Notes under the pieces: generated by a model
The model's input: the letters and a program-made list of their open reading frames with translations, nothing else
Databases searched by the model: none
Told to the model about the DNA's origin: nothing
IMG/VR virus record: IMGVR_UViG_3300044684_000139
Coordinates: 1 to 30,547 of that record
Length of the DNA stretch: 30,547 nucleotides
DNA from: a virus
Direction: 5' to 3' (one strand)
Translations under genes and position numbers: made by a program
Shown here: positions 1,372 through 25,139 of the stretch, piece by piece
Numbering within the stretch: position 1 is the stretch's first letter
How the letters are laid out: the number at the start of each line of letters is the position of its first letter

Positions 1372-3153
1372 CTAGCAATGCGTGACAATGCCGGCCGTTG
1401 ACGCGAAGCTTGCCGTTGGGGAGCCGGAGCATGTCACGCCCGTAGACGCATCTACAGCGAAGGAGTGAGCGTTCACAAGCGACCACGCCGCTCCGTTCGC
1501 TCCAAGTTGCGCCCCGCTGTCATTCGTCTTCGGATAAATGCCGGCACTGTTCCAATAAGCCGTCGCGGCGCCTGCAACCTCCAAGGCTCCGTTGCCGCCC
1601 GTGCCCACGTTGATAACGAGGTTTGTCGAGTAGGCGTCCAACTCTGGCGTTCCAACATTACCGAAGCCGGAGATAAAGAAATTGCTGCCAACCAGCGCAT
1701 AGCCGCTGAATGCAAAGCCCCGAAGGTCAATCCCATTCGTGACAGTTTGGGTGCTGAGCGAAGACCAATAGTAGCCGATCAGCGTCGAGGCGCTTCCGAC
1801 AGGAGAGGCGGTATTGACGTCAGTCCAACAAATTCCGCATTGCCAGCCCGCGCCAGATCCGGCAGTTCCTTGCACAGTTTGAGCGCCGATCGCCACAGCG
1901 GCGTCAAAGGACGATCCCTGATTTTTCTCAACGTTGACGACGTTCAGGCCGATACCGTACTTCGCGTGAACATTCGACGCCGAAGCCGTATCGATTTCTA
2001 TCCCATCGTTTTCTGTGATGTAAAGAGAACCGCTCACCGGGTTGTCGAGGAACGTCGTCGAGGTCAGGCCGTAGTAAAAGCCGAGCGGGGAGCCGTTCGT
2101 GCCGCCGTCGCCGGTAGCGCTGTAATTGAAAATCTGTTGAGCGGCGTAAGAGCGAAGCGCCGCCGTATTGTTAGGATTGGTGGCTTGCTGCTCCATCGTG
2201 ACTTGGAACGCCGTCCGATACCCAGAGAGCGACGAACCACCGTAAAAGTCAGCGACCCAGAACGAAACACCAGTGTTGGTCGAGCCGAGATTCGCGTTGT
2301 CGCTCGTCGTCTCGATGCCGTTATAGGGACACCCGAAAGCGGCAGTGCAGATGCCGCCAACGCCCGTTTGCGTCCCGCTGATCGCTTGCGTCTCGAACAG
2401 GCCATAATTGAGGCCGGTCGTCGGCGAGATATTCAGGGCCGGCGTCGTGGTGGAGCCGCCGCTGAATGTTGCTTGTGGGATGGTCAGCCCGCTCGGCAGC
2501 GTCGTGCATTCCGTCGGGGCGGTGTTTGAAGCCGCTCGACATGGGACAGAGTTAGCGACAGGAGTCGTGATCCCCGGCCCCGCCCCCGCCCCTCCCGCAT
2601 AAGGAATGCCGTATTGGGGGGTGATATTATAGAGGCTTCCTGTACCGACAATGGGAACGCCAAAAGTCGCCAAAATCGGCGTGTAGCCCGAGCGCGTAAC
2701 CGACAGCCACGTATTCGTCGCAGAGCCAGCGTCGTTCATCGCCTGGAATTCGAGCGTCCCGGTCGTATTGTCGACCCGCTGATTCCATGCGCCTAGATTC
2801 TGGCCGCCATTCAGTGACGTGTTGTCAAGGTAAAGAAACGGGTTCGATGGATTGGTGATATTGACGCCATTTTGGAAAGTAGGATTACTGGCGGTAAGAT
2901 CGCCGAAGCCGAAATTATTCGCGCCGGTCCAGGTGTTTGTATCAGCCAAATTGCCGAAGCTAGCGATTCCATTCGCTTGCAGCGTATAGACGCATTGGGC
3001 ACTGATTTGGCCCAATGCGTTGTTGAAAATGCATGGGTTCAGGTAATTGGTCGTCAGTTGCGACCGCGTATAGGGCGCAGCCGCATTGCCTATAGACGAC
3101 AAGCAAATTGTGCCGCACAAGGCGATAAAGGATAGGATTATTTTTTTGAACAT
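1372..3153 (-). CDS. Putative tail fibre/spike protein with N-terminal signal peptide
   Basis: This 593-aa protein is rich in Gly, Ser, Thr and Asn, with long beta-type segments typical of phage fibres. Near the C-terminus comes a YWNSAGIYPKTND segment and an 'LGANGAAWSLVNAHSF' segment, resembling the shaft end of many fibre proteins, and the protein ends in GIVTHC, a tail I associate with related alphaproteobacterial phage proteins. The N-terminus ([20 protein letters not shown]... cut near NAAA) looks like a Sec signal peptide, which is odd for a virion part. The start at 3153 overlaps the upstream stop as TAATG, which decides it over the longer frame. A host-recognition role is inferred from composition and position, not from a catalytic motif. 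Confidence 0.75.
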   Translation of the reverse strand: MFKKIILSFIALCGTICLSSIGNAAAPYTRSQLTTNYLNPCIFNNALGQISAQCVYTLQANGIASFGNLADTNTWTGANNFGFGDLTASNPTFQNGVNITNPSNPFLYLDNTSLNGGQNLGAWNQRVDNTTGTLEFQAMNDAGSATNTWLSVTRSGYTPILATFGVPIVGTGSLYNITPQYGIPYAGGAGAGPGITTPVANSVPCRAASNTAPTECTTLPSGLTIPQATFSGGSTTTPALNISPTTGLNYGLFETQAISGTQTGVGGICTAAFGCPYNGIETTSDNANLGSTNTGVSFWVADFYGGSSLSGYRTAFQVTMEQQATNPNNTAALRSYAAQQIFNYSATGDGGTNGSPLGFYYGLTSTTFLDNPVSGSLYITENDGIEIDTASASNVHAKYGIGLNVVNVEKNQGSSFDAAVAIGAQTVQGTAGSGAGWQCGICWTDVNTASPVGSASTLIGYYWSSLSTQTVTNGIDLRGFAFSGYALVGSNFFISGFGNVGTPELDAYSTNLVINVGTGGNGALEVAGAATAYWNSAGIYPKTNDSGAQLGANGAAWSLVNAHSFAVDASTGVTCSGSPTASFASTAGIVTHC

Positions 3154-4922
3154 TAGCCCCTTATCCCTACCGTCATAGCGACACGTGATCCAGGAGACCC
3201 GCTGCCGTTCCATGTTCCAGTGCCGCCTGAAACAAGACCGAGAAGAGTAGCATAGTGATACCCTTCGCTTAGTCCGCTTTTAAGATATGCAATTGCAACG
3301 CTTGCTTGAGGAGCGCCGCTGACCGTTCCCCTGGTATCATTGACGTCCTCTGGAGTTGTCCCATCTATACCAAGTGATGAAGCCATAAGAGCATTAGAGG
3401 GACCAACGGCAGACCCTGAGGCATTGATTTGCACATCCTCCCCAGCCCATGTGAGGAATTGCACTCGAATGGTCGAGCTTAGTTCGACAAAGGCGGTGCT
3501 TGTCGTAGTCTGGTTCGCCCCAAATGCATTTATACCGGAGAGAGAGCGCCTATTGAACCAAGAGAGGACAAGGAGATTTGCGCCGCCGTTGTTAAAGACC
3601 GGGCCACTTTGCGGGTACACCATGCCGATGAGAGATCGGCTATTATTCCCACTTTCGATTTCGACGCCAACATTTCCGGCACTTGAATCCGTTACATGAC
3701 CGGTAGTTGAAAAGTCGAGCGTAAGCGTCCCCGCGTTGTTGAATATGTAGACATAGTACTTAGTATTGGCGACGAGCGTTTGGCCGGACGAGCCGTTTAT
3801 GTAACAGTTCGTCGCGACAGCCGAGACGCCGGCCGAAGGAATTGGATAGTCGACGCCGGCGATTTTGACATAATTGCCGTTGAATGGCGAGAAAGTTACA
3901 GTTGTCCCTCCATTCACCGGAGCGGAAAGATATCCTTGTCCGAATGACAGGCCCAACGCGCCCGATGCCGCGCCGATCGTCGTTGACGTGACGACAGGCT
4001 GCATAGCAGCGGTTATTTGATTGTACCCTGCCAGCAGAAAATAATTCTGTGCGGCATAGTAGGTGACGGTGACGAGATTTCCGGCTGCGATTTCCGGAAC
4101 GCCAGTGAGAGGAACAGGGCCGCTCGGCGAGTTCTTATAGACCGGGATCGCCGACCCTGTCCCTGACGGCGTGATTGTGGTTGCGCCGGTGTTAGAGTTA
4201 GCCGCGACGAACTGAATGGACTGGCCATCTGTCGCGGAAAAAGAGGCGTCAGTGACCGTAATCGCATTAGCCGTCCCGCCTGCGAGAGAGGCCCAAAATG
4301 GATTTTGCGTCAGGCCATAGGTATTTTGATCCCAAATCTCATTGCCGAGCGAATCGTAAACGATCTGGCGATAAGCGCCGCTTCCAAATATAATTGCGCA
4401 ACCATTAGCATCAAGCGGGACTGGATTTTGATTGAGGATCGTTCCGGCTTGATCCTGGTACGTCTGCTTAGTCGTCAGAGTTCCGGGTACATAGAAGCCT
4501 ACCGATCCGCCGGCCAAAGCCGAATTTATGGCAGTCGAATTGACCGTAACCGAAAAGCCAGTGACGCCCCCAATGTTGCCGCTCGCAGCAGTCAGAGTGT
4601 CGTTGACTTGATATGTCGTACCCGGATTGAGAATGACGACTTGGGTGACGCCGCCGCCGGAAACGGTAATATTGGCCGTGGCGCCCGTTCCGCTCCCACC
4701 CGTAAGCGGGACATTGACATATGTTCCAGCGGTCCCGCCGGTCCCGGCCGTGATCGTGCCTAGGACGCCGATCATGCCGCTTACGCCGGTCGTCCCGCTG
4801 AAACAGACTTCGCCGGGCGGCAGTTGGCTCTGTTGCGCTAAAACCGCGTCAGGCGTAATGCTGGCAGCTAGGCCAAGCGAAAGCATCGCCGCAGCGCAGA
4901 AGGCGCGCAGTCTCTTGAACAT
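3153..4922 (-). CDS. Putative tail fibre protein with virion-attachment-like N-region
   Basis: This 589-aa protein begins with a signal-peptide-like segment ([20 protein letters not shown], cut near VLAQ). It then has a Gly-rich stretch with [16 protein letters not shown] (around residues 90-110). Next is a [15 protein letters not shown]...[11 protein letters not shown]...[17 protein letters not shown] segment that resembles the N-terminal virion-binding region of many podovirus tail fibres and spikes. The following '[11 protein letters not shown]' and '[20 protein letters not shown]' repeats are also usual in fibres. I chose ATG 4922, with AGGA about 6 nt upstream, over an ATG at 4964 that falls in a hairpin loop. 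It sits directly before the second fibre gene, so the two may form one receptor-binding apparatus. Confidence 0.8.
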
Positions 4923-4935
4923 TCGGATTCCTGGG

Positions 4936-5136
4936 ATGAGCGGGATTATTCGAGCAGCCGGCATTTGTGCCGGGCTGCTAACTCTCTCAGCGCTTTACGT
5001 GCTGATGAAATATCTGATCACTGGCCTTTCTGTCGCTTTCGGAGAAGGCGTTTTCGTCGGCTTTATTCTGAACTTCGCCCTATGGTTCGGGGCGTGGTGG
5101 TTCAGCCCAGAGAGCTTTCAGCGTCCGCCGAGGTAG
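4936..5136 (+). CDS. Possible small two-helix membrane protein (holin-like?)
   Basis: A plus-strand frame of 66 aa fills the only sizeable gap (about 195 nt) between the ejection gene and the fibre genes. It would encode two hydrophobic helices (about residues 5-27 and 38-57, with [21 protein letters not shown]) and a short basic tail ending RPPR. Size and topology fit a small holin, and no other holin candidate is seen. Against it: the ribosome site is weak (only GGG before ATG), its start lies 14 nt from the divergent fibre start, and its 5' half overlaps a strong RNA hairpin. It could be a chance frame. Treat as tentative. Confidence 0.35.
4954..4978 (-). other. Strong hairpin in the leader of the tail-fibre gene
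   Basis: GCAGCCGGCA at 4954-4963 pairs with TGCCGGGCTGC at 4968-4978: ten base pairs with one bulged base and a four-base loop. No U-run follows on either strand, so it is not a standard intrinsic terminator. It lies about 30 nt upstream of the fibre start at 4922 on the minus strand and contains the alternative ATG (4964) in its loop. It could be a processing, stability or attenuation element between the ejection and fibre genes. Confidence 0.5.
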
Positions 5137-10206: not shown

Positions 10207-10946
10207 CTGATCACCTTAAAATTGTCGCCGTCGACCTGAATAATCGCGTTGCCGATATTGACGACCAGCGGCTCTTTCGCGACAAGGCCGATCACTCCGT
10301 ACCCGGCAAACCTCGCCCAGCGGTTATAGAGCGCCACGGCCTTGACCGGCTGGCCGCCTTTCAGCATTTCGACGCACGCGCCGACGTGAAGATCATGGCA
10401 CTCCTCATCCTCGTGTTGCGGCTCGAAATGGCCATGACGCAGAAATTCCTCTTCAAGCCGATGATGGAACCAACGGCCAGACTCGATAAGTTCGGGCGTA
10501 CGATTTATCCAAGCGTCGTATCGCAGCGACCAGTACGACATATCGACATGACCATCTTTGGTTGGCCATATCGCCTTACGCTCGAATTGCTTCTCGCCGC
10601 CAGCCGCCGCGGTGAACATCGCCGCCGCTCGATTGCTGGCCGGAACCTTAGTCAGGATCGTCATGCAATCGGTTCTCGTGAACATCCAACGCGCGGCTTG
10701 CATAGCCGCCTTCATCGCGTATCTGCCGCGATGTGTGCTCAAGAAATTTGTATGTACTTCGTAAATTCCCGGCTCGTGCCAGTCATAGAAAATCGCTCCT
10801 CCTTCGCAGGAGAAGAAAACGTTCAATGGATTTTCAATCAGCGTAGAGACATCAAACGTCTCGACACCAGGCAACATGATCGTCTGGAAAACGCTCGGAT
10901 CGTTGAGGATCGGATTGATGTCGGCCGGATCAAATGTTCGCCTTAT
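10197..10946 (-). CDS. GNAT-fold acyltransferase-like phage protein, non-standard start
   Basis: The core reads EPGIYEVHTNFL, then RGRYAMKAAMQAARWMF, TDCMTILTKVPASNRAAAMF and FERKAIWPTKDGHVDMSYWSL. This order of strand, acyl-CoA-binding-like loop (RGRYA) and 'VPASNRAA' is that of a GNAT-like family often found beside podovirus tail genes. The target is unknown. The first ATG is at 10877, but the frame upstream (RRTFDPADINPILNDPSVF) resembles the family's conserved N-terminus as I remember it, and no ATG, GTG or TTG is present there. I therefore place the start at ATA 10946, which overlaps the upstream TAA as ATAA. Without that assumption the protein starts at 10877 and has 226 aa. Confidence 0.75.
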   Translation of the reverse strand: MRRTFDPADINPILNDPSVFQTIMLPGVETFDVSTLIENPLNVFFSCEGGAIFYDWHEPGIYEVHTNFLSTHRGRYAMKAAMQAARWMFTRTDCMTILTKVPASNRAAAMFTAAAGGEKQFERKAIWPTKDGHVDMSYWSLRYDAWINRTPELIESGRWFHHRLEEEFLRHGHFEPQHEDEECHDLHVGACVEMLKGGQPVKAVALYNRWARFAGYGVIGLVAKEPLVVNIGNAIIQVDGDNFKVIRCL

Positions 10947-11638
10947 CTGCGGCGTCTCGCTCCGATGAACCCGAAGCCTTTGAGACCCGATCCTGTGAAC
11001 GATACCATCGTGCTGAGATAGATTGTCGTCGCCTGTCCCAGGCTTTGGCGCATCATTCCGAGTGGAGCCGTCAGAGGCCCCGTCGTCAATGTTTGTGCCC
11101 CGCCCGATAGACTGTTTGCGAATTGGAAATACGCCCCGTTGTTCGGAGGATTTGGGTCTGTCGCCGACGTCGCGCTCAGCCACGCGTTCATCGTCGTGAT
11201 ATTTCCGGAGCCTAGGGCTATGCCTATACTTCCCCATACGTCCCAATCTCCGGGAGAAAGCGCGAGCAAAAGGATGTCGGCAGCGACGCCTGACGACAGC
11301 CCAATTCCATGCGTTGAATCGAGTTGCGACGAAGAGAATTCGCCGATGTTTCCGGATGCCGCGTTATCGTTTGTCGCCGTGGCGGGATATTCTCCAGCGA
11401 CATTTGAGAGATCGGCGCTTGCGATCGCTCTAAAATCAGCAACTCCGGCCTCATTCGCGGGCGTTGCAAAAAATTGGTTCGCTGGATTGTCGGGAAAGTT
11501 TGCGCCGCTCAGAAAGCCATTCTCTCCGCCTGTTCTTTGGAACAGCTGGAAGAGGAACTGCTGCCCGATGTCGGTAAGAGAGCCATCCGAATTCGTTAGC
11601 GCGGCGTTGGGAAACCCAGCCTGAAACCCGTTACTCAT
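10943..11638 (-). CDS. Putative tail/fibre-associated virion protein (231 aa)
   Basis: The N-terminus has DGSLTDIGQQFLFQLFQRTGG, then VADFRAIASADLSNVAGEYP, a linker typical of phage fibre or tail-hub proteins, and a beta-rich C-terminal domain ending in TIYLSTMVSFTGSGLKGFGFIGARRRR. Ser, Thr, Gly and Asn content is high, as in structural proteins. It lies between the gp10-like gene with its small companion and the GNAT-like gene. In P22 order this is about where the tail needle sits, but no coiled-coil needle is evident. The role as a tail accessory or fibre is inferred. Confidence 0.75.
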   Translation of the reverse strand: MSNGFQAGFPNAALTNSDGSLTDIGQQFLFQLFQRTGGENGFLSGANFPDNPANQFFATPANEAGVADFRAIASADLSNVAGEYPATATNDNAASGNIGEFSSSQLDSTHGIGLSSGVAADILLLALSPGDWDVWGSIGIALGSGNITTMNAWLSATSATDPNPPNNGAYFQFANSLSGGAQTLTTGPLTAPLGMMRQSLGQATTIYLSTMVSFTGSGLKGFGFIGARRRR

Positions 11639-11823
11639 TCAGGCGCCCAAATGATCGTCAGCGAGCCAATGACTCGGCCGCCTTTGTCGCGACGCTTTGC
11701 GGCTTCAATCGCGGCTTCTTTCGATACGTACTTATTCCTCGCTGCGCCATCTTCGCGAGGCTTGAGCGAAAGAACCCATTCATCGCCTTCGCGCCAGCCA
11801 TGGCAAATTTGGGGAACGCTCAT
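11635..11823 (-). CDS. Small hypothetical protein (62 aa)
   Basis: A short basic protein: MSVPQICHGWREGDEWVLSL, then KYVSKEAAIEAAKRRDKG and a C-terminal GSLTIIWAPE. The middle 'SKEAAIEAAKR' is a probable helix between two strands, a compact fold seen in small DUF-type proteins. It overlaps both neighbours by ATGA, so it is translated with the tail-hub gene. Function not recognised. Confidence 0.7.
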   Translation of the reverse strand: MSVPQICHGWREGDEWVLSLKPREDGAARNKYVSKEAAIEAAKRRDKGGRVIGSLTIIWAPE

Positions 11824-13373
11824 GCCGCATGCTCTAGCGGCTCAAGATAAGCCCCATTCAGAGCGGACGGACCAGGATAGGCCCATAGCAACTCATAGAC
11901 GCGATCACGCGCCATGCCGAGCCCTCGAAATCGCATCATGCTTCGATAATTGCCGGCGGTGACAAGACCCTTCTGGCGGTAATTGCTCCAGGTCTTGCCG
12001 CCGGTATTGCTATAGCGCATGCAGAGCGCGGGTCCAGCGGGGAGTCCCCATGCCGCGTTTGCGCCTAGAGGCCCGAACGCCTTACTAAACGCATTACTCC
12101 AAGGCGATGCGCCGGCCGTCACTTCTTGAGTGTTCGGCATTTCTCCCGTCTCAAAGTCTGCCACAAATGAGACATGCGTAATCTCGTGCATGTCCTTCAA
12201 TTGATGTGGGAACGTACGACGGAATACGATCGGCTGGCCGTTGTCGGTATAGTATTGAGGGTCGAGGGCGTAAATCTGTCCGGTCGACCAATCCTGGCCG
12301 ACGATGGTCGGCGGGAACCCGCCATCCGCCCCGACCGAGGCATAGAACGCCACCTTCTCGCGGTGAGCGACGCCATTATTGTCGATCCAGGTTCGACGAT
12401 GCCATTGCTTCGTGGCGAGATCGTAGCCCCAGGTCCGATCGGCGGTCGGAAAGTGGAATAGTATGAAGGTATGCCCGGCCTGTTGGAACGTTCCCGCTAT
12501 GCAGTCGTCTATCCGCGGGTAGGCGGACCACTCATATTCGAGGGCGCGGGTTGAGATAGCCTGAACCGCGTAGCCCTTAGTTTGGACCGCAATCGCCTGA
12601 CCCTGCTCATTGCGCGAGAGCCAGAAAAGATCGATATCGGCCCGAACAAGGCTATAGGCTGCCGCGCAGCCGTAAGGAACGAAGATGTTCGGCCATTCCT
12701 GGTACGGAAATGGCGTCGCGCCATTGTTGAACCAGACCTCGGAGCCCCGCGTTTTAAGAAGCCAAGCCTGTCTCAGATTGAAGGAGAGCGTCTGAATTGG
12801 ATCAGGGTTAGAGTCCGCGTTCGCCTGTACCAGGGCGTTGAACGCGACCTGATTGGAAAGCGATAAATACCATTCGTTTGCGCCTGGCGCGGCGAATGCA
12901 AAGAATGTGTCGGCAAAATCGACTCGTCGCGAACCAACAAAGGTTCCGGTATAGTCGTTGATCTGCGTCAGGACATTAGTCCCGAGAGAAATCTGATAGC
13001 CATGAACGCTCCCGTCGACCAGGACCGCGTTTGTCCCATTGTCCGACATTGAGACCGGCGTCGTCAGATTATCCAGTACTTGGCCAATTTGCGTCCAGGT
13101 CCAGTTACGATCGATCGAATAGACGTTCTGCCCCACTGCGGCGTAGAGTTGGCCAGTCGACATCGCGAATACGCCACGGCCTGGGCCGGGATTCGGCGGT
13201 GCAGAAAGTGGACGCTTGCCCTCTCTCGGGATATGCACAACGGGCGTCGTCGGCTCTTGGTCCTGCGGCGTCACCTCCGGGAAGAGGTTTTCGCAGATTT
13301 GGTAATCCGAGATATGCGCGCGAGATTGGTACGCGCCGCCGAGCAGCGGTATGAGATTGTCAGAGCGGAGCAC
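11820..13373 (-). CDS. P22 gp10-like head-completion / tail-hub protein
   Basis: This 517-aa protein has the look of the P22 gp10 (packaged-DNA stabilisation) family. It begins with a LLGGAYQSRAHISDYQICENLFPEV segment. Repeated blade-like elements follow (GVFAMSTGQLYAAVGQNVYSI, VDGSVHGYQISLG, DFADTFFAFAAPGANEWYLS, DLATKQWHRRTW), ending with RYSNTGGKTWSN and RDRVYELLWAYPGPSALNGAYLEPL. In P22 gp10 joins the gp4 ring to the tail and plugs the head after packaging. It follows a gp4-like gene with two small genes between, and its length is similar to gp10 (about 470 aa). Confidence 0.85.
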   Translation of the reverse strand: MLRSDNLIPLLGGAYQSRAHISDYQICENLFPEVTPQDQEPTTPVVHIPREGKRPLSAPPNPGPGRGVFAMSTGQLYAAVGQNVYSIDRNWTWTQIGQVLDNLTTPVSMSDNGTNAVLVDGSVHGYQISLGTNVLTQINDYTGTFVGSRRVDFADTFFAFAAPGANEWYLSLSNQVAFNALVQANADSNPDPIQTLSFNLRQAWLLKTRGSEVWFNNGATPFPYQEWPNIFVPYGCAAAYSLVRADIDLFWLSRNEQGQAIAVQTKGYAVQAISTRALEYEWSAYPRIDDCIAGTFQQAGHTFILFHFPTADRTWGYDLATKQWHRRTWIDNNGVAHREKVAFYASVGADGGFPPTIVGQDWSTGQIYALDPQYYTDNGQPIVFRRTFPHQLKDMHEITHVSFVADFETGEMPNTQEVTAGASPWSNAFSKAFGPLGANAAWGLPAGPALCMRYSNTGGKTWSNYRQKGLVTAGNYRSMMRFRGLGMARDRVYELLWAYPGPSALNGAYLEPLEHAA

Positions 13374-13582: not shown

Positions 13583-14053
13583 CTATTTGCAGGCCCAGAC
13601 GCCATTTTTGGCGGAAAAGCAATAAATCTGCGTATGAGTGGCGACGCCGCCGGAAAAGCTGGTTCCGTTGTTGATCGTATCCTGCGCACCCGTCAGACCG
13701 TTATTCGCAATCGATGGGTAGACCGCGAGGGTATTTGCGCCGTTATTGTAGATCGAAATCTCGGTGCCGGCCACGGCCGGCGGAAGAGCGACGCCAGTCG
13801 ACGATGCGACGGTATCAATTTCGATAAGCGTATTGCCTGGGACGAGCTGGAGCGATCCGGCCTGGTTCGACCCAGTAGCCGTGAGGCCGTAAATGTAGCT
13901 GGCGTTCTGGCCGTTGGCGACGCCGTTTAGCCAAGTCGCGTCCGGCACAGTCGGACCATTGCCCGGATTCGGCGCAATGCCAGTCGCGGCGAGCGCCGCA
14001 CTCGAAGCGAGAAACATCGCGCCAAGAGCGAACTTGGCGATGGTCTTGAACAT
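13583..14053 (-). CDS. Small beta-rich protein with signal peptide (156 aa)
   Basis: It begins MFKTIAKFALGAMFLASSAALA, a clear signal peptide with cleavage before ATG. The mature protein is rich in Gly, Asn, Thr and Ala and contains STGVALPPAVAGTEISIYNN, then GANTLAVYPS and a final CFSAKNGVWACK with two cysteines. The 'ALPPAVAG...NNGANTLAVYP' pattern occurs in many small phage structural or decoration-type proteins as I remember them. It lies between the gp4-like and gp10-like genes, so a virion role is likely by position, yet the leader predicts export. Confidence 0.75.
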   Translation of the reverse strand: MFKTIAKFALGAMFLASSAALAATGIAPNPGNGPTVPDATWLNGVANGQNASYIYGLTATGSNQAGSLQLVPGNTLIEIDTVASSTGVALPPAVAGTEISIYNNGANTLAVYPSIANNGLTGAQDTINNGTSFSGGVATHTQIYCFSAKNGVWACK

Positions 14054-14067: not shown

Positions 14068-14844
14068 TCAGTACTGCCCGGCGTCGTCCGAGCGATAGTC
14101 ATAGGCGCGCTGCCTTCTCAGGAAAGCAGGCATTCGAAGCGTCGACATGGCCTGATTGGCGAGGCGCAAGGTATTTAGCGCGTTCTTTGCCAGCCTATCG
14201 ATCGTCGGGTCTGGTGGCATTTGATAGGTCGCGCGCAGAACTTGCGCGCCGCAGAAGTTCAGCGCCGCTTCATATTCAGGCGGGAAACTGATTTGCTGTT
14301 GGAGCGACGAAAATCTGGGCAAAACGACTTTGAAGCCGACATGGATTTCATAAATGTTCGGCTGCGGAACTGGCCAAGGAAATAGCTCTCCGATCGGCCA
14401 TTTCGGATCATAGAAGATGCGCCAAGGCAATGTGCCTATCGTCTTCACCGCGATCCGAGAATAGTCCTCGTGCGATTGGATGATCTCAATTGGGACGTCT
14501 ACCGGGAACTGCGCCGGCTCTCCAGTGTTGAGAAACCGCAGGAAGGCATATTCAAGCCGATCGGGGCGCGGATTGATGTTGATCGTCTGGTTAAGCCCGA
14601 CCGCGTAGCTCACCGCACCCGTCGCGACGAAACTATAATCCTGAATGCGATAGCAGAGCCATCTTTTCCTCGCCCATTGAGCGAGCAGCCAATTCAATTG
14701 CGTGAAAGCGCGATTGATGACCGGCTGTTCAGGATTTTCGTCGATGCCGATAATACCGGCATCGACGAGCATATTGACGATCAGTTTTTGAACATTATCG
14801 ATCGGCTCAACTGGTTCCGTCGGAGCCGGACCGATATTGGTCAC
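14068..14844 (-). CDS. P22 gp4-like head-tail adaptor
   Basis: This 258-aa protein has the pattern of P22 gp4-type tail accessory factors: AFTQLNWLLAQWARKRWLCYRI (helix with LN..L..W), then YSFVATGAVSYAVGLNQTI (beta hairpin with S-Y-x-V-G) and RPDRLEYAFLRFLNTG. Later come HEDYSRIAVKTIGTLPWRIFYDP and a C-terminal helix (ALNFCGAQVLRATYQMPPDP). Gp4 binds the portal after packaging and starts tail assembly. The protein is longer than P22 gp4 (166 aa). Gene order, with gp10-like downstream and coat upstream, agrees. Confidence 0.8.
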   Translation of the reverse strand: MTNIGPAPTEPVEPIDNVQKLIVNMLVDAGIIGIDENPEQPVINRAFTQLNWLLAQWARKRWLCYRIQDYSFVATGAVSYAVGLNQTININPRPDRLEYAFLRFLNTGEPAQFPVDVPIEIIQSHEDYSRIAVKTIGTLPWRIFYDPKWPIGELFPWPVPQPNIYEIHVGFKVVLPRFSSLQQQISFPPEYEAALNFCGAQVLRATYQMPPDPTIDRLAKNALNTLRLANQAMSTLRMPAFLRRQRAYDYRSDDAGQY

Positions 14845-16019: not shown

Positions 16020-16035
16020 CAAGCCTTCGTCAGTC

Positions 16036-17295
16036 CTACGGGACCGAATCTGCTACTTGGCAAATCCATTCCGGCCTAGGCACGCCCGACCCGAACAGAA
16101 TATCCAAGCGATCGATCGGCTGATCCGTGGTCGGCTCGTACACAACAAGCGACCGCATGCTCAGCCGATCATATTCATGTCGCGCCGCCGCAATGACGCC
16201 CTTCTCGTTCGTCGGCACCCACAACGGGGCGACGACCATCGTAATGGCGTCCGGCGAATAGACCAGGTTCTCGCGATAGGTCACGCTCGCGTTGGCGAAA
16301 GGCGTAATCGTCGCGTTGTTGGCCGGCGAAGCCGTCACGGTCTGATATTGCTGTGGCGTATAGGGCAGGCCAGCATAGGCCGTCGAGCTCGCCGGCGGGA
16401 TGATCGGCGGGTAGATATTCATCGTGGTTGCGCCGTTCGCCACGGCCGCAGTCACGACAAACTGCGCCGCAACGCCGAGCGAGGAGAAATTCGCCCGGTT
16501 GACGCCGTTGACGCCCGCGATCGTCACCACGTCGCCGGCATTCAGTGTGCCGGTGATGGCGTTGATCGTGAGAGATTGTCCGGTCTGGTTAGCGCCGTTC
16601 ACCGTTGCCGAGGTCGCCGAACCGGTCGTGTGGGCAACGACCGACTGATCCTCGAAGAAGCGAAGCTGATAGGCTTCATACATCATGCCGGTATTGAACT
16701 GATCGGAGATCGTCGCGACCGGGTTGAAAATGCCTTTCAAGGACTGCTGAACGCGCGTGTCGGAACGGGGCGCAAGAACGGCTTTGCGCATACCCATTTC
16801 GCCAAAGTTCGGCGCCGAATTTTCCTCGAGGATGGCGCGAGCCAGGGCGAACGGGCCATCGTTGACCGGCAGGATATTGTTGTTAGAGTCGACGTTGGCG
16901 ACGATATTCTTGGCCGCGTTGACCGTATTGGCCATGATCTGGACCGCGACGTTCGCCGCCAGATAATTGACGCGTGGAAGAACGAAGCGCTCCATATAAT
17001 CGTCGATATCGAGCGTGGTTTCCGCCGAGGTGAACGCGACGTCGATATGGCGCTGCGTCGAGACGGTAAGCAAGAACTGCTCTTCCGTCGTATCCTGGAT
17101 CGAAATCCCAGGGCCATCGGTCGGAACGTACTGGTTCGGATAGCGGATGCGAAGCTGAGCGCCGATGCGCGCGCCTTCGCGGCCGAATTGATCTTCGAAC
17201 TGACGCGAGATGTTCTGAATGAAGTAGTTCGTGTTCAGAAACATCCTGATCGCAAACCGAGTGATCATGCTCGGCGTGAGGATGTTGTTAGCCAA
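16036..17295 (-). CDS. P22 gp5-like major coat protein
   Basis: This 419-aa protein fits the P22 coat family: start ANNILTPSMITRFAIRMFLN, then QFGREGARIGAQLRIRYPNQY, RHIDVAFTSAETTLDIDDYMERFVLP, and a C-terminal VTYRENLVYSPDAITMVVAPLWVP followed by LSMRSLVVYEPTTDQPIDRLDILFG. The region about 230-310 (TGQSLTINAITGTLNAGDVV) corresponds to the inserted domain of P22-type coats. The start codon is TTG at 17295, supported by AGGAG 8 nt upstream; no ATG is available in frame. It follows the scaffold gene and a 57-aa gene and is closed by a strong terminator. Confidence 0.93.
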   Translation of the reverse strand: MANNILTPSMITRFAIRMFLNTNYFIQNISRQFEDQFGREGARIGAQLRIRYPNQYVPTDGPGISIQDTTEEQFLLTVSTQRHIDVAFTSAETTLDIDDYMERFVLPRVNYLAANVAVQIMANTVNAAKNIVANVDSNNNILPVNDGPFALARAILEENSAPNFGEMGMRKAVLAPRSDTRVQQSLKGIFNPVATISDQFNTGMMYEAYQLRFFEDQSVVAHTTGSATSATVNGANQTGQSLTINAITGTLNAGDVVTIAGVNGVNRANFSSLGVAAQFVVTAAVANGATTMNIYPPIIPPASSTAYAGLPYTPQQYQTVTASPANNATITPFANASVTYRENLVYSPDAITMVVAPLWVPTNEKGVIAAARHEYDRLSMRSLVVYEPTTDQPIDRLDILFGSGVPRPEWICQVADSVP

Positions 17296-17413
17296 GACGG
17301 TTCTCCTGGATGCTCATGCTGATGAGGCGGCTTGCCGGCCTCGACCAGTTGCTCAGGCTGGGGCTGTTACGAGCAGAGCATCGGAAAGGAGCGCCGAGAC
17401 GCTTGACTGTTCG

Positions 17414-17587: not shown

Positions 17588-17588
17588 C

Positions 17589-18443: not shown

Positions 18444-18449
18444 GAGCCC

Positions 18450-18920
18450 TCACTTGAGCCAGTTCATCTTGGCCGCGCCCTTTGCAAGCTCGGCCCGATA
18501 GTTCCGCTTCGTCCCATAGTTTTCGAGGATAGACTTATTCTCCTTCGCGTCGCCCTCGAATTGCTGCGATCCCGGCGCGAGCTGCAGGCGCGTATCGCCC
18601 TCATGGCCCATGCGCTCTAGACCCGCGCTGAAAGCCCGCTCAACTAGCATGGCGAGATACATCTTCCGGGCATCGTCCGGAGATGTCTTTGGGTCGCCCA
18701 AGCGCTCGGAATACATCATGCGCACAGCCTGAACGAAGGTCCGCCAGTTCGCGTCAGCAAATTCGTATTCGTTCGGCCAATTGGCGCGGAACTTCGCGCT
18801 ACGGTTCATGCCGTGAAACTCGCCGGCCATTTCCCGCGCGTCGTGCTGGATCAGCGCGACGAGATTCATGGCGTCGCGAACCGAGATAACCTCATTGCCG
18901 ATGACGATGTTCTGACTCAC
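18450..18920 (-). CDS. Hypothetical protein between portal and scaffold (156 aa)
   Basis: The GTG at 18920 overlaps the upstream stop as GTGA, with a GGGG run before it, and is preferred. An ATG at 18929 would add three residues. The protein is helical: SVRDAMNLVALIQHDAREMA, then FADANWRTFVQAVRMMYSER, and DDARKMYLAMLVERAFSAGL, with a basic C-terminus. No motif tells its function. The constant position in the head operon suggests a capsid-assembly helper. Confidence 0.75.
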   Translation of the reverse strand: MSQNIVIGNEVISVRDAMNLVALIQHDAREMAGEFHGMNRSAKFRANWPNEYEFADANWRTFVQAVRMMYSERLGDPKTSPDDARKMYLAMLVERAFSAGLERMGHEGDTRLQLAPGSQQFEGDAKENKSILENYGTKRNYRAELAKGAAKMNWLK

Positions 18921-19204
18921 CGGCCCCATCCGAACATATTGATCGTCACGCCGTAGGATTGGAACTCGCCTCGCTTGGCGAGCTCCTTTTGCAGGCCATC
19001 GATTTGAATCGCCGCAGCCCACAAAGACGAATTTCGTTCATTGATCATTGTCTGTAGAGCAGCGTTCTGTTTCTGCAATTCGGCGATCTCGTCGGCGGCG
19101 CGGCGCAATTCCTCACGCTCGCCCCTCGAAAGCGATTTGGCGTCCTTGGCGATGATGCAGAGAATATCGATGCTGTTCGATTGCTCGGCGATTTCTGAGA
19201 TCAC
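18917..19204 (-). CDS. Small coiled-coil protein (95 aa)
   Basis: Residues about 20-75 form a long charged helix with heptads (LSRGEREELRRAADEIAELQ, KQNAALQTMINERNSSLWAA), ending in a short beta-like FQSYGVTINMFGWGR. It overlaps the portal gene by ATGA. Coiled-coil proteins of this size occur after portal genes in several podoviruses. Function unknown. Confidence 0.7.
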   Translation of the reverse strand: MISEIAEQSNSIDILCIIAKDAKSLSRGEREELRRAADEIAELQKQNAALQTMINERNSSLWAAAIQIDGLQKELAKRGEFQSYGVTINMFGWGR

Positions 19205-21366
19205 GCCTCGGCTCCCGTCGCCTGCGGTTGCAATTCGGCGGCATTCGTATCGACGATCATCTGCATCGTTGCGTCATGCGAACGCGTCGCGATGTCGTGC
19301 TCCATCTGGGCTTGTTGTTGCGGCGTTAGCGCCAATTTCGCCAAAGCTTCAACCGCCATTCGCAAGCGGTCCGTCTCAGCCTTGAACGCTTCAATATCGC
19401 GCTTTTCGTCCTTGCCCTTGAGCGCCAGTTCCTTGACCGCAAGCTTCTGGACGAGTTCGGCGTTGATAGCCGTCAACCGCTTCAATTGCTCATTGGCGGC
19501 CAAAAGCTGCGGATTCGGGTCTTCGTCGAAGAGATAGGGTTTCGTGGCCTTGATCTCTTTCTGCAATCTCTCTCGAAGCTCTTCGGCGCCGGGGAAATCG
19601 CCAAACTTGACCAATAAATCGGCGGCAACGGACGCGGCCCAATTGTTCTGTTGCAGGATCATGGAATAGGCGTTCCACGCCTCCTGCCGCTGCGTGGCAT
19701 AGCTCGGCCCCGGATCGGAGATACATTCATACTCGCCGATCGATGGGTTGAACGCGAGCTTTACCGCTTCTTCGTCCTCTTTCTCGTGCTTAAGCTCTTG
19801 GATAACATCATCCTGGTTAGGATCGATTCTGATCCATTGCCGCTCGCCCTTTTCGTCCATGATGAACATGACGCGTTCGGTGTCATAGATTTTAGGGATG
19901 AGGTCGATAAGTTGTTTGCCGATATACCGCTTCATGTCGCTGTTGTGCTCCACGAAGTGGTATGTCGCGGTGTCGCCTTGCTGCTGGCGCTCTGCGATGG
20001 CCTTGCCCGACGCCGCGCTTTGCTGATCGTTCTCGCCCATTTGGGCCTGGAACTGGCCCGAAACCATCATCGCCTGGCGCTCGGCATCCTGCATGCCTTG
20101 CAGATTGGCCGGCGAGACTTGCGGAGGGTCAATCCGTTCTGGCGGCGGGATCGGATTGCCGTCCTCGTCTAGGTGATTCCAGAGCAGAACGGCGTGGTTT
20201 TCGGTGTTCGCCGTCTTCCATTGCTCTTGACCTTCGGTCGCCGCGGCTGGGGCCATCCATTGCGACTTAGGCGCCAGCGCAGCGACCTGAACCGCGACCG
20301 ACGCATTGTAGTTCAACATACGGTTCGGATCGATCAACTGCCGTGTCATGCCCTTGCGGTCTAGCGTTCCGTCAACGACCGCTACGCGACCAAAGCAAGG
20401 GACGATCGGAATATACTTACCGGCCCAATCGCCGCGGTCGACGACCTGATTTCCGGCGATCAGGTACCACTTTACTTCATCTCGCGTAACTTCTCGGTAC
20501 CGACCGTCCAGAGTGCCATCCTTGATCTGCTGCATCAAGGCGTCGTATATTTCCTTCTTGGCGTCCTTTTTGATTTCCGACGCCAGCTTCTCAACATAAT
20601 CGGCGCCATCGTTCTCGCGGAAGGCTATCAAAAGGTCCGGCTTGTTTTCCTTCTCGTAATATTTGGCGACGACAATCTCCTTGTCCGAAATCCACTCCGT
20701 CATGGTGTTTTGGAGCGGAGAGACGGCGACCCTGTTCTTATACTTGGGGTACTTTCGATCAAACAGTTTTCGAGACATTTTCTCGAAAACGAAACCCCAT
20801 CGCGCGTCAGAGCAATCCGGCTCCTTGCACCATGGATAAAGATAGACGCCAGTCGGGTCTTGCGCCGCCCGAAGAAAGATGTCTTGGTCAAACGACCGCT
20901 CCGACACGTAGGCGGTGTCGAGCAGAATATAGCCAGCGCCGCCGTCAACCTGATGCTCGGTGACCAGACGATATTGCGTCGAAGCGTTCGACACATATTC
21001 GATGCGTCGGACGATGTTCTGCATAATCTCAGCGGACTTGTAGCTTGCCTTTCCGCCGGTCGGTCTGATCTTGATCCCGTATGCGTTCTTTGAGATCGCG
21101 TTGATGATCAGGTCGTTATGGACCCTCGTGATATTGATGGTCAGGCATGGCAGTTCTTGGCCGCCGCCGGTTCTGGCCCGGTAAAGCGCATCGGGCCATT
21201 GATACGTATTGCGCGCGTCGCCGATCGCAAACTTACGATCATCCCTAGAGCGATCATCTTCCGCGCCCTGCCATTCTTTGGCGGCTATGAAATTCTCATA
21301 GGCGCGTAGCAAAAGACCTTCATCGCCAGTCTTATAGGTCGAGGCGGGCTCAACGGTGGCAACCAT
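19201..21366 (-). CDS. P22 gp1-like portal protein
   Basis: This 721-aa protein matches P22-type portals in size and pattern: FAIGDARNTYQWPDALYRAR, PCLTINITRVHNDLIINAIS, QYRLVTEHQVDGGAGYILLD, YLYPWCKEPDCSDARWGF and later PCFGRVAVVDGTLDRKGMTRQ. A Gln-rich segment follows (MVSGQFQAQMGENDQQSAAS), then a long C-terminal helical region that would form the barrel. The portal is the dodecameric vertex through which DNA is packaged and ejected. It follows the large terminase gene by three bases. Confidence 0.93.
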   Translation of the reverse strand: MVATVEPASTYKTGDEGLLLRAYENFIAAKEWQGAEDDRSRDDRKFAIGDARNTYQWPDALYRARTGGGQELPCLTINITRVHNDLIINAISKNAYGIKIRPTGGKASYKSAEIMQNIVRRIEYVSNASTQYRLVTEHQVDGGAGYILLDTAYVSERSFDQDIFLRAAQDPTGVYLYPWCKEPDCSDARWGFVFEKMSRKLFDRKYPKYKNRVAVSPLQNTMTEWISDKEIVVAKYYEKENKPDLLIAFRENDGADYVEKLASEIKKDAKKEIYDALMQQIKDGTLDGRYREVTRDEVKWYLIAGNQVVDRGDWAGKYIPIVPCFGRVAVVDGTLDRKGMTRQLIDPNRMLNYNASVAVQVAALAPKSQWMAPAAATEGQEQWKTANTENHAVLLWNHLDEDGNPIPPPERIDPPQVSPANLQGMQDAERQAMMVSGQFQAQMGENDQQSAASGKAIAERQQQGDTATYHFVEHNSDMKRYIGKQLIDLIPKIYDTERVMFIMDEKGERQWIRIDPNQDDVIQELKHEKEDEEAVKLAFNPSIGEYECISDPGPSYATQRQEAWNAYSMILQQNNWAASVAADLLVKFGDFPGAEELRERLQKEIKATKPYLFDEDPNPQLLAANEQLKRLTAINAELVQKLAVKELALKGKDEKRDIEAFKAETDRLRMAVEALAKLALTPQQQAQMEHDIATRSHDATMQMIVDTNAAELQPQATGAEA

Positions 21367-21369: not shown

Positions 21370-22983
21370 TCAGTAGCGCATCCAGCCAGCGCCGCGATCG
21401 CCTGTCCTTGAAACGGTAATCGTCGGCACTTTAGGAATCTCTGCTTTCGGCGGGGAATAGCCCATCGCACCGGTCATGTATGAATCGGCGCCGTGAGAGG
21501 CCCAATCGTGAAGCGGTTCTCGGCTCCAGGTCGATAGGCGATCGTTCCAAGCCTTGCGATAATTGTCGAGACAACGGATGCCCTGCTCGCAATGCTTTTC
21601 ATCGAACCAGCTCATGCCGATCATTCGGCGAGCCGCGTCGATCGCGTCGTCTTTGTTGTCGATCCGAGGAATGACCTTGATCTCAATCCCAAGGCCGCGA
21701 GCGATGTCTTTGCGGGATTTTCCTTGCCCGCCCCAATCGGTATTTCCGAAATCGTGCGGGCCGTAATGCTTGCCGAAGGTCCAGCCAAACTCAATCCGCT
21801 TATCGTTCAGGACGCCGATATAATGGCCGATCTGCTCGTCGAAATTCTCGTAATAGTCGATGAACCGATGCCGAACACCATCGGTTTGGTGGAACCAAAT
21901 CGACGTCGTGTCGTTGCCGATATCCCAGAACGTATTGACCGGTCGAGTGTCGTCATAGGGCAATTGACAAATGCGACCCTCAAGCCGCGCCTTGGTCATC
22001 TGCCGGCGGAAATAGGCTCCCTCGATCGAGGACTTGAACGCCTCATCAGGATATGACGGATATTCCCGGAACATCACGTCCGGGCCGATCTGATAGCGCT
22101 TGGCCGCGTACCAGGCCCGTTGATCAGCCGATAGGTTTACGCCATGCTTGGCTTTCAGTTCCGAAAAATATTCCTCGAGGTCGGCTGGAACTCGAACCTT
22201 CGACGGATCGATCTTATACTCAGAATGCTGCCACCAGGCGAAGAAGTGAAGCTTAAAATCGAGCTCGGAAAGCTCTCGGCCCTCTTTCTGGAGAGCGTCG
22301 GCCCGCTGGACCATATCGTAGAATTCGCCGCCCACGCCCTCCGCTGTGCTCTCGACATGGATTGTCTGGCCGACATGCACCGTTCCGAATCCGCCGGCCT
22401 TGATCTCCTTGGCCTTGTCGGGCCGCATCGCGCTGATCTTGCCGTATTCGGATACATGCAAGATTTGCAATGTGCCGCCGCGATGTGAGGTCCCTACCTC
22501 AATACGCGATCCGTTTGAGAACTCCATCGTCTCGGTGTTCGCCGTGACGAGGCCTACTTTGGCCTTGATGTCCTCTCTCAGACGATTGTAGGCGAACTTA
22601 ATCTTCCCGAGCTTTTTCTTGGCGTCGTCGAGACTGTAGTCGATAATGCCCGCCGTCGTGTTTGGCGTGAACAGGCATTTATCCAGAATCTCTAAGGCGA
22701 TCTCAGTCGAGAACCCGAGCTGGCGCGCTTTCAGGATGACGTTAAGGAACCAACGATCTTTCCACCATCGCTTCTGGGCTTCGTTTCGGTAAAACTTTAC
22801 CGCCTTCCCTTGCGCATCTTCAATCCAATAGAGATTGTCGATGCGCCATTCCGGATTGCCAAGCGTGGCTGCTTGAAGCTCCGGCGCGATCAGCCGATCG
22901 AGTTCCGCCTTTTCCTTTTCACTTAAGGAGGCGACGTACCGTTCGAGATCGAGCGCCGAAGAGTCTAGAGTTGGAATCCCCAT
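21370..22983 (-). CDS. Terminase large subunit
   Basis: This 537-aa protein has an ATPase with the deviant Walker A KARQLGFST (residues 85-93), Walker B ILHVSE (174-179) and coupling motif ESTAEG (211-216). The C-terminal nuclease shows acidic residues in FWDIGND (D354), GPHDFGN (D411) and HGADSYMTG (D500). It cuts concatemeric DNA and drives it into the head through the portal encoded just downstream. The start overlaps the upstream gene by 19 nt and has no evident ribosome site, so translation is probably coupled. Confidence 0.95.
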   Translation of the reverse strand: MGIPTLDSSALDLERYVASLSEKEKAELDRLIAPELQAATLGNPEWRIDNLYWIEDAQGKAVKFYRNEAQKRWWKDRWFLNVILKARQLGFSTEIALEILDKCLFTPNTTAGIIDYSLDDAKKKLGKIKFAYNRLREDIKAKVGLVTANTETMEFSNGSRIEVGTSHRGGTLQILHVSEYGKISAMRPDKAKEIKAGGFGTVHVGQTIHVESTAEGVGGEFYDMVQRADALQKEGRELSELDFKLHFFAWWQHSEYKIDPSKVRVPADLEEYFSELKAKHGVNLSADQRAWYAAKRYQIGPDVMFREYPSYPDEAFKSSIEGAYFRRQMTKARLEGRICQLPYDDTRPVNTFWDIGNDTTSIWFHQTDGVRHRFIDYYENFDEQIGHYIGVLNDKRIEFGWTFGKHYGPHDFGNTDWGGQGKSRKDIARGLGIEIKVIPRIDNKDDAIDAARRMIGMSWFDEKHCEQGIRCLDNYRKAWNDRLSTWSREPLHDWASHGADSYMTGAMGYSPPKAEIPKVPTITVSRTGDRGAGWMRY

Positions 22984-23528
22984 GCCGATACAGTTGCGTT
23001 GCCTCCCGTTCCGGCAGCGAGGGTGTTCACATTTATTGCGGTATTGGTCGCAGACGCGGGAATACAGGGGCCAATCGGCGGAGAGAGCGGAGCTAGCGGG
23101 ACCGATGTAGTGCCGATATTCTCCGTGAAGTTCAGCGTTCCGCTTATCGTTCCCGTCACAGTCAGAGTTCCGCTCACCACTGCCGTCGCCGAGCCGCCAG
23201 CGCTAAAGCCGCATAGATAGGTTGTCTTGCCGACTGCGGCCGGCAATGTTGCTGTGATGCTGGCAGTCGTTCCTGTCGTCGAGGCGGTGACCGGGACCGC
23301 GCCGCTTGGATAAGGCGGAACGCTTACGAAAAGAGGTGACCCGGCAGCGCCACCCACAGCGTTTGAAACCGGCAAAGGAAATGACGACGAAACGTCCTGG
23401 CAGCTATAATTACCGACCGAGTTGACGCTTTTGACACAGACCGAAGTGACACCCTGAGCGTATGCGGGCGCAGCCATCAAGAGCGCGCCAGCGACCAAGC
23501 AAAGAGCGGCGAGGATCAGCTTGCGCAT
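22965..23528 (-). CDS. Beta-rich protein with signal peptide (187 aa)
   Basis: It starts MRKLILAALCLVAGALLMAA with cleavage likely after AYAQ. The mature part is rich in Thr, Ser, Val, Gly and Ala, with TATLPAAVGKTTYLCGFSAG and a final PCIPASATNTAINVNTLAAG then GNATVSAWGFQL. I recall the same ATLPA..GKTTY.CGF and CIPASA.NTAI patterns from unnamed phage-associated proteins. Cysteines at both ends could form disulphides in an exported protein. It lies immediately before the large terminase and overlaps it by 19 nt. Confidence 0.75.
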   Translation of the reverse strand: MRKLILAALCLVAGALLMAAPAYAQGVTSVCVKSVNSVGNYSCQDVSSSFPLPVSNAVGGAAGSPLFVSVPPYPSGAVPVTASTTGTTASITATLPAAVGKTTYLCGFSAGGSATAVVSGTLTVTGTISGTLNFTENIGTTSVPLAPLSPPIGPCIPASATNTAINVNTLAAGTGGNATVSAWGFQL

Positions 23529-23935: not shown

Positions 23936-23948
23936 GATTGCGATCTCC

Positions 23949-24587
23949 TTACTGGATGCGGTACCAAGTCGTATTGGACGCCTGATAGCGCCAAGCATAG
24001 CCAACGCCCGCGACGCAAGCCGCGTTCGGATTGCCTTTGAGGGTCTGTCCAGTATTGGCGGCGACGGTGAGCGTGCCGACCGTAGCGGCCTCGCAAATGA
24101 CGCGCTGAATTTGCCCTTCGATCGCCGACGCCGGCATGGTGACGGTCAATGCCGAGCCCTGGGCGCCATCAAGAAAATACCACGGCGTAGAGTTCGGGAT
24201 GGTCTGCGAAGTTCCGACCGACGTAAGATCAATCATCGGGCCTTGGCCCAATTGAAGGATAGAGACCGCCTGAGTAGCAGGAGGAGTCGATGCGGTCGAA
24301 CCGAGCGGCCCAACATCGAACGGCGCGTATTCAGTGCCCGCAAAGGTCGGCGAGCCGGCCGGAACGGTCTGAGCGCAAGGGCCTTGGCCAGTCCCTTGAG
24401 TCGAGCCGGGGAGGACGCCGTAATTGCCCTGCGACGCCGGCAGTGTGACGCCGCTGACGGTCGAGGCGCAATAAGACGACTGACCGATGCCCGGTAGGGT
24501 CGACCACATGCCATAGCCCCACGACGCGACAGGGGCGACGACAGCCAAAGCAAGAGCGGCAAGCGCCGCGACGCGGAGCTTTTTCAT
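23949..24587 (-). CDS. Beta-rich protein with signal peptide (212 aa)
   Basis: MKKLRVAALAALALAVVAPV is a typical signal peptide. The mature part is Gly, Thr, Ser and Pro rich, with ASTVSGVTLPASQGNYGVLP, a VTMPASAIEGQIQRVICEAA segment, TLTVAANTGQTLKG and a C-terminal GYAWRYQASNTTWYRIQ. The final part resembles the small beta domains of phage fibre or decoration proteins. AAGGTG precedes the ATG by about 6 nt. The 88-nt gap upstream holds repeats and palindromes that may be regulatory. Confidence 0.75.
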   Translation of the reverse strand: MKKLRVAALAALALAVVAPVASWGYGMWSTLPGIGQSSYCASTVSGVTLPASQGNYGVLPGSTQGTGQGPCAQTVPAGSPTFAGTEYAPFDVGPLGSTASTPPATQAVSILQLGQGPMIDLTSVGTSQTIPNSTPWYFLDGAQGSALTVTMPASAIEGQIQRVICEAATVGTLTVAANTGQTLKGNPNAACVAGVGYAWRYQASNTTWYRIQ

Positions 24588-24649: not shown

Positions 24650-24693
24650 CGCGCCAAGCTCAAACATTTCTGGTCTCAGACCGCGCCAAGCTC
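24650..24693. repeat. 12-bp direct repeat pair with intervening dyad
   Basis: CGCGCCAAGCTC occurs at 24650-24661 and again at 24682-24693, 32 bp apart from start to start. Between them GGTCTCAGACC (24672-24682) is a near-perfect dyad. The right copy encodes the C-terminal Glu-Leu-Gly-Ala of the 81-aa protein, so the left copy may be a duplication of that gene end. Spacing near three helical turns would also suit protein binding. Confidence 0.6.
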
Positions 24694-24921
24694 CGTCAAG
24701 GCGGGTTTGGCAATGCACTCAAATGGAAACTGCACCCGATCATCGGCTGTAGTCCAGCCAATATCCACATGCTTCCCTGTGACTTGCCGCCAGAATGAAA
24801 CTATATCAACCGACAGATCGCGTGGACGATGACGAAGAACCTTAACGCCACTCGGCATGCGATCCCTAAACGGACAATCTACCCATTCCGGCCATGTCGA
24901 GACGTCGGAGTCGTCGATCAT
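24676..24921 (-). CDS. Hypothetical protein (81 aa)
   Basis: Starts MIDDSDVSTWPEWVDCPFRD, then VKVLRHRPRDLSVDIVSFWR and DIGWTTADDRVQFPFECIAK. Compact alpha/beta character, two cysteines. The ATG at 24921 overlaps the upstream stop as ATGA. No family recognised. Confidence 0.65.
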   Translation of the reverse strand: MIDDSDVSTWPEWVDCPFRDRMPSGVKVLRHRPRDLSVDIVSFWRQVTGKHVDIGWTTADDRVQFPFECIAKPALTELGAV

Positions 24922-25139
24922 TGCGGCGACAATTCTGAAGCCGGTTTTCCTTCCGGACCAAACCGGAAGAACTCGCATTGATCGGCGGCGAAGCGATGCG
25001 ATAGGCAGGCTCGCATGAACTCGGCGTCGGTTGAGCGAACGGGCGCAGTCTCCGACACCTTTGCGGGAGACGCGGCAGCAAGTCCAATTGCAACCGCAGC
25101 AACGGCACAAAGAGCAATCAACAGGCCGTCAATTTTCAT
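24918..25139 (-). CDS. Small protein with N-terminal membrane or signal segment (73 aa)
   Basis: MKIDGLLIALCAVAAVAIGL is a hydrophobic N-terminal helix that could be a signal peptide (cut near AASPA) or an anchor. About 45 residues follow, with two cysteines (FMRACLSHRFAADQCEFFRF). The CxxxxxxxxxC arrangement resembles small helical hairpin proteins held by disulphides. It overlaps the upstream gene by 11 nt. Function unknown. Confidence 0.7.
   Translation of the reverse strand: MKIDGLLIALCAVAAVAIGLAAASPAKVSETAPVRSTDAEFMRACLSHRFAADQCEFFRFGPEGKPASELSPQ

Follow-up and report, generated by a model that had tools for sequence, protein, structure and literature searches.

Why should a short-tailed phage place N-terminal signal peptides (SPs) on proteins encoded amid its structural genes? 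By the textbook account, tailed phages are put together entirely in the cytoplasm, and the question is raised by the 30.5 kb stretch of an uncultured soil virus studied here (IMGVR_UViG_3300044684_000139; "the window" throughout), whose minus strand is, judging by its gene content, the late block of a P22-like short-tailed phage. A sequence-only reading had claimed that eight genes of this strand (1372, 3153, 13583, 22965, 23949, and 24918, plus 1 and 321 at the left end; genes are named by their left-hand coordinate, and window features given with two dots between their coordinates lie on the minus strand) start with Sec-type SPs. It had offered three explanations: virion parts delivered through the envelope, decoys that coat the host surface, or membrane-bound assembly by way of the hydrophobic start. 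We find that the predicted SPs go with one functional class, being carried by spike and fiber proteins and not by core virion proteins, and that in alignments they are conserved and placed at the domain edge where SP-less homologs begin. The explanation that we lean toward, with some reserve, is that the appendages would be made as Sec pre-proteins while the virion core assembles in the cytoplasm, the spikes docking at lysis.

Signal peptides in the late block

SPs were scored with a purpose-written heuristic that combines h-region hydrophobicity, n-region charge, and the −3/−1 rule and was checked on eight known E. coli SPs. By this score, genes 22965, 23949, 13583, 3153, 1372, 321, and 1 have SP-like N-termini with a basic n-region, a hydrophobic core, and an A-x-A-like end, and their n-, h-, and c-regions with small residues at −3/−1 are of the kind expected of a Sec-exported protein cleaved by signal peptidase I. 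Seven of the eight proposed genes (five of the six between 1372 and 25139) thus keep their SP, but an SP is not supported for the 73-aa (amino acid) protein of 24918..25139, as its N-terminal hydrophobic segment comes with an n-region without net positive charge (MKID...). Some of the SPs depend on corrected starts. That of 1372 begins at ATG 3153, which shares one base with the stop codon upstream (TAATG), is preceded by the ribosome site AAGGGG, and shortens the protein from 613 to 593 aa; that of 3153 begins at the internal ATG 4922 and not at 4964; and the start of gene 1 lies at 324, where it overlaps gene 321 in an ATGA. Shuffled N-termini match the observed score in at most 0.3% of cases for 1, 321, 13583, and 22965 and in 4–14% of cases for 1372, 3153, and 23949, so that the SPs of these last three rest on conservation in relatives and not on the single sequence.

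The earlier reading had proposed, among other checks, a comparison with homologous phages, and there the SPs prove conserved and tied to appendage proteins: in related contigs and by the same score, the SP threshold is reached by 25 of 29 homologs of 13583 and 25 of 27 homologs of 23949, but by none of the 154 homologs of ten core virion genes. In phages P22, PAE2, P26218, and DSL-LC05, likewise, none of the genes annotated as head or tail scores as an SP gene, and the SP-like starts in these genomes belong to lysis or membrane genes, spurious open reading frames, and one 169-aa hypothetical protein of P26218. The SP-bearing appendage proteins of the window match no lysis family (PHROGs, Pfam) and have no Cys directly after their cleavage sites, and so lack the features of signal-arrest-release (SAR) endolysins and spanins. 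Cysteine counts are even in 49 of 51 SP-bearing proteins, which suggests periplasmic disulfides; parity by itself was considered too weak and was weighed only alongside gene order and the presence of an SP.

Position A between the gp4-like and Hc3 genes

Gene 13583 (13583..14053) encodes a 156-aa SP-bearing protein that SP score, gene order, relatives, and fold mark as a putative fiber tip or spike, and its predicted 22-aa SP (13988..14053; ...SAALA/ATG) was placed by score and alignment. Its left neighbor in gene order is the gp4-like tail adaptor gene (14068..14844; phrog_12985; paired with the gene in adaptor position of Acetobacter phage phiAX1), and on its other side lies the gene for the head closure protein Hc3, similar to P22 gp10 (11820..13373; phrog_578); both neighbors lack an SP and served as core controls. 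In most relatives of the window's group a 13583 homolog occupies this slot (position A), while in P22, P26218, PAE2, and DSL-LC05 the gp4-like and Hc3 genes stand side by side and no SP gene separates them. The SP is present in 22 of 25 aligned position-A loci, where SP sequences differ and the cleavage position precedes the same conserved start, VGxxPxxGPxLxDGxWLNG. In the three SP-less forms (L039, L024, and L042), the predicted mature N-terminus is itself occupied by a Met, with an in-frame stop upstream. Complete SP-bearing forms have exactly two mature cysteines in 20 of 21 cases, at three alternative pair positions.

Neither Pfam nor PHROGs gave a name to 13583, 1372, 22965, or 23949, and tblastn of 13583 and 22965 against the named phages returned no match. 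The predicted structure of mature 13583 (predicted local distance difference test, pLDDT, 85) finds its closest PDB folds, all at modest scores, in the tailspike depolymerase of phage Solidus (24qj; prob 1.00, E 0.0019, low-scoring), T4 gp9, and the capsid spike of Pseudomonas phage Pa223 (9ny6; prob 0.92, E 0.036); the likeness to the Solidus and Pa223 proteins is one of fold, with no sequence relation. In a viral structure library, the model is closest to phage fiber and tail proteins among many unnamed ones.

The tail end and the head-binding domain

At the tail end, gene 3153 (3153..4922) encodes a putative SP-bearing tailspike or fiber precursor of 589 aa, assigned by phrog_5342 (tail fiber), SP score, and relatives. 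It consists of a predicted 29-aa SP (4836..4922; ...DAVLA/QQSQ, the cleavage point set by alignment with relatives), a Cys-bearing N-terminal domain, a tailspike head-binding domain (4320..4532; profile and alignment), and a variable C-terminal part. The latter is shared with the Rhizobium phage tail proteins RR1-A and TM26 and with a Bradyrhizobium phage protein, all without an SP. The adjoining gene 1372 (1372..3153) specifies a second fiber-like protein of 593 aa that is Cys-rich and begins with a 24-aa SP (3082..3153; ...IGNA/AAPY) according to the SP score; it has SP-bearing counterparts after the 3153-type gene in relatives. Its N-terminal domain, which may be a common tail-fiber anchor, has no match among the named phages. 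In ten relatives, the genes directly after the ejection/hydrolase gene include SP-bearing fibers of the 3153 and 1372 types; of the two SPs in L081, and likewise in L084, one was recognized only by eye or after its start had been corrected.

A profile built from SP-bearing 3153-type forms alone matches the head-binding domain of 7eeq (E 5.9e-5) and the tail spike 9vyg (E 1.4e-4). In six named podophages (P26218, PAE2, VvAW1, ctfPj964, ctNMl277, and 41E34.2, whose hosts are gamma- or betaproteobacteria or are unknown), this domain stands at the very N-terminus without an SP. That is not the arrangement of 3153: in the window and its relatives, an SP precedes the domain. In relative L089, the SP is joined directly to the head-binding domain of a 1571-aa protein that also has Collar and Peptidase_S74 chaperone domains, and because both are above the Pfam cut-offs this protein is a genuine tail fiber with an SP. 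In each of six near-complete relatives a single protein has the head-binding domain, and its N-terminus is of SP type (that of G010 scores low but is plain by eye). A Cys pair within the head-binding domain (GE.CF and NGC) is found in 9 of 10 SP-bearing forms versus 0 of 6 SP-less ones (p = 0.0009, uncorrected for relatedness).

Position B on the terminase side

On the terminase side (position B), gene 23949 (23949..24587) encodes a 212-aa SP-bearing putative fiber protein in which a conserved anchor domain is followed by an exchangeable fiber-tip C-terminus, as judged from SP score, alignment, and relatives. Its 24-aa SP (24516..24587) is predicted from the score and related loci, and the anchor, with two invariant Cys (24258..24515), was delimited by alignment and 29 related loci. 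These 29 loci, found by a scan, mostly have terminase or portal genes nearby, and an SP is present in all 28 anchor-domain proteins with a readable start; two other alignments of the study proved too heterogeneous to scan the collection with. The C-terminal modules of the family are either a fiber-tip domain related to the ends of Klebsiella phage tail fibers and depolymerases or a longer tail-fiber module (phrog_4492). Within the family, identity averages 35% over the SP, compared with 49% over the anchor; on this comparison, the predicted SP is kept although its sequence diverges. The structure model of 23949 is poor (mean pLDDT 54) and was not used. Upstream of the gene for the terminase large subunit, gene 22965 (22965..23528) specifies a 187-aa protein with two Cys pairs and a predicted 24-aa SP (23457..23528; ...APAYA/QGV), both supported by score and relatives; the C-terminal Cys pair is kept in seven of 8 aligned family members.

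Named relatives and known export systems

P22-like podophages such as P26218, Pseudomonas phage PAE2, and Vibrio phage VvAW1 (PDB 7eeq and 9vyg) resemble the window in their core virion genes, in gene order, and in the tailspike head-binding domain, but their spikes start at that domain without an SP and their gp4-like and Hc3 genes adjoin. Separately, the 169-aa hypothetical protein of Rhodoferax phage P26218 (L047; 15492–15998) has a strong SP and lies near genes for a lysozyme-like protein and for tail fibers, which have none. Acetobacter phage phiAX1 (LC644973, L044) is closer in this respect, since it combines a P22-like core with SP-bearing proteins in the gp4–Hc3 slot, namely a 321-aa fiber-like protein and a 641-aa GH66 (dextranase-type) protein, both with clear SPs. 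The GH66 gene (27387–29309) lies inside the head-gene cluster, and its deposited start is 105 bases late, so that the SP was missed; the deposited annotation makes no mention of SPs. Neither of the two phiAX1 proteins is a homolog of 13583, which suggests that exported proteins have come to occupy this slot on more than one occasion.

Two known cases come near to what we see. Gp40 of Xanthomonas phage PBR31, a P22-like podophage, is an esterase with an N-terminal SP that resembles tail-associated hydrolases; it is a single enzyme with a possible role in lysis according to its authors (PMC10975493), and neither a spike nor a fiber. Phage lysis proteins also use Sec, as SAR endolysins and spanins do in, e.g., JG068 (PMC3765740). 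Like the proteins of the window, they have N-terminal signals that send phage proteins into or across the inner membrane, but they are lysis proteins and not receptor-binding appendages, and SAR signals stay uncleaved. The literature searched, with partial coverage, held no precedent for exported tail fibers or spikes, only lysis proteins and the one SP-bearing hydrolase. We treat this absence as a lead and not as proof; spikes and fibers themselves are known, and it is the route that would be new. The earlier suspicion that something undescribed might be found at this place was well aimed.

A possible two-compartment assembly

We propose that the spike and fiber set (3153, 1372, 13583, 22965, and 23949) would be made as Sec pre-proteins, with SPs that the comparison of relatives indicates to be real. 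Terminase, portal, scaffold, capsid, tail adaptors, and ejection proteins would be made without signals and assemble in the cytoplasm. The appendages would be exported, cleaved by signal peptidase I, and folded in the periplasm with disulfide bonds. Export and cleavage are strongly suggested because cleavage positions are conserved and SP-less homologs begin at the mature N-terminus, and disulfide formation is likewise strongly suggested because the cysteines are paired. At lysis, periplasm and cytoplasm would mix, and mature spikes could dock on finished virions through their head-binding or anchor domains. As the only head-binding-domain protein found is the exported one, the tailspike would have to come from the exported form. 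In vitro, finished P22 heads accept tailspikes, which makes such late docking plausible; it would even be a necessity, provided that these phages do use head-binding-domain spikes, because none without an SP came to light. Of the three options first offered, virion parts delivered through the envelope is accordingly the one that gathers most support, as the SP-bearing proteins carry virion-mounting and fiber domains and the SP form is the sole head-binding-domain protein in the six near-complete relatives. That an entire group of tailed phages makes its receptor-binding parts by way of the periplasm, by export, disulfide formation, and mounting at lysis in a two-compartment assembly, is a broader claim on which we are evenly balanced.

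The most serious competitor, though an unlikely one, is that the SP-bearing proteins are exported and never join the virion. Unattached, they would serve as adhesins, as depolymerases, or as occupants of receptors, and would prevent superinfection, keep progeny from sticking to debris, or clear surface polysaccharide; the decoys of the earlier reading belong here. SP genes at these places do encode enzymes as well (the GH66 protein of phiAX1 and two arabinofuranosidase-like proteins of L090), and in some relatives the position-A tip domain is also found on SP-less needle- or fiber-like proteins, as would be expected of a competitor. Head-binding and anchor domains are nevertheless conserved, which would be useless to a free protein and makes this view less likely. 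Moreover, none of the six genomes has a head-binding-domain protein besides the SP form, so that decoys would leave the phages without a recognizable virion tailspike, and Sec export alone stops short of the outer surface before lysis. It is improbable that uncleaved hydrophobic N-termini instead hold the fibers at the inner membrane for pick-up by tails or heads, or stay on the virion. Some cleavage sites are indeed weak or shifted (L052, L053, and L055 have an extra stretch before the anchor, and L017 ends in FAFG), but cleavage-type residues are kept just ahead of the conserved mature start while the SPs diverge, and the three homologs that lack the whole segment begin at that start. Cysteine pairing fits the periplasm, and a tethered domain facing the periplasm would still be apart from cytoplasmic virions. 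The earlier option of membrane-bound assembly through an uncleaved start is weakened to that extent.

Less credible still are two further readings. One is that each gene yields both an SP-bearing form and a cytoplasmic form from an internal start, only the latter joining the virion. In some genes an in-frame ATG or GTG does follow shortly after the SP; however, no internal start is conserved across homologs, and a ribosome site stands at 3 of the listed internal starts, each a minimal 4-base match, whereas such sites accompany the majority of SP starts. The check for dual translation turned up no start downstream of the SP that was both conserved and equipped with a ribosome site, and this reading is not supported. 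The other, of which we think equally little, takes the SP genes for moron-like lysogenic conversion or host-envelope genes that sit among virion genes by chance; their number and sequence vary between relatives, as that would have it, but they carry tail-fiber, head-binding, Collar, and S74 domains and keep fixed places in the late block of all relatives.

Several points weigh against export followed by docking. The sequences behind the Cys and SP counts are related to each other and do not represent independent events, and the Cys pairs do not follow the SP everywhere: the SP-bearing L089 lacks the pair in its head-binding domain, and the SP-less L039 has two Cys. Most contigs are not proven complete, so that an SP-less tailspike could escape view. 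Neither position A nor the 23949 anchor has a solved relative by sequence in the PDB, and their place on the virion is for this reason argued from gene order and fold. Finally, phiAX1 was predicted to be incomplete by its authors, whose strains gave only myovirus-like particles (PMC8566455).

If the proposed route is true, the evolution of receptor-binding proteins would gain disulfides, periplasmic chaperones, and secreted enzyme domains, the account of how and when spikes join particles would change, and anyone unaware of it who produces such spikes for study would choose the wrong compartment. Spikes in unannotated phages could also be recognized by a simple genomic mark, namely an SP ahead of a head-binding or fiber-anchor domain, and an inducible relative would allow a direct test.

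Relatives, host, and other genes of the window

The assignment to P22-like phages comes from portal, coat, Hc3, and ejection proteins in the usual order (PHROG matches, and tblastn of the portal to P22-like phages, with identities of about 40% or below). Further core controls without an SP are the terminase large subunit (21370..22983; phrog_2 and phrog_2472), the P22-like portal (19201..21366; phrog_156), and the major capsid protein (16036..17295; phrog_283). An ejection protein is encoded by gene 9499 (phrog_598). The gene at 5118–7700 encodes a fusion, a large ejection-type protein that opens with a cell-wall hydrolase domain (PF07486) and is probably a virion lysozyme.

The capsid protein is 77–82% identical in 33 IMG/VR contigs and in the 57.9 kb contig JARLIW010000323.1 (L043), binned in a Beijerinckiaceae metagenome-assembled genome (MAG). 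The 5118 homolog runs across the ends of this contig, which is therefore probably a complete circular phage genome; by its binning, a member of the Beijerinckiaceae is its putative host. A search for the anchor domain in 398 genomes of the MAG's order returned just the MAG's own phage contig and one weak match, which leaves the host uncertain; the phage of the window probably infects an alphaproteobacterium.

Other SP-bearing proteins occur in the tail regions of relatives. L083 (reverse complement) has seven of at least 240 aa at 255–8245 and 13873–18880, one of them with 1369 aa, 26 cysteines, and no family match. L090 has two with arabinofuranosidase-like domains (PF09206) at 5812–6861 and 7434–8444, one of which also matches a virion structural protein family. 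In the window, two small proteins with heuristic SPs stand at the left end, where the record stops: that of 321..542 (73 aa), possibly a periplasmic coiled coil, has a similar small SP gene after the fibers in relative L084, and that of 1..324 (107 aa; start 324) has one Cys pair. The window also holds a tail fiber or needle-like protein without an export signal (10943..11638; phrog_11393, tail fiber), which contrasts with the SP-bearing fibers; its gene is overlapped by that of a protein (10197–11021) with weak likeness to phrog_651 (head morphogenesis), DUF2824, and an acyl-CoA N-acyltransferase family.

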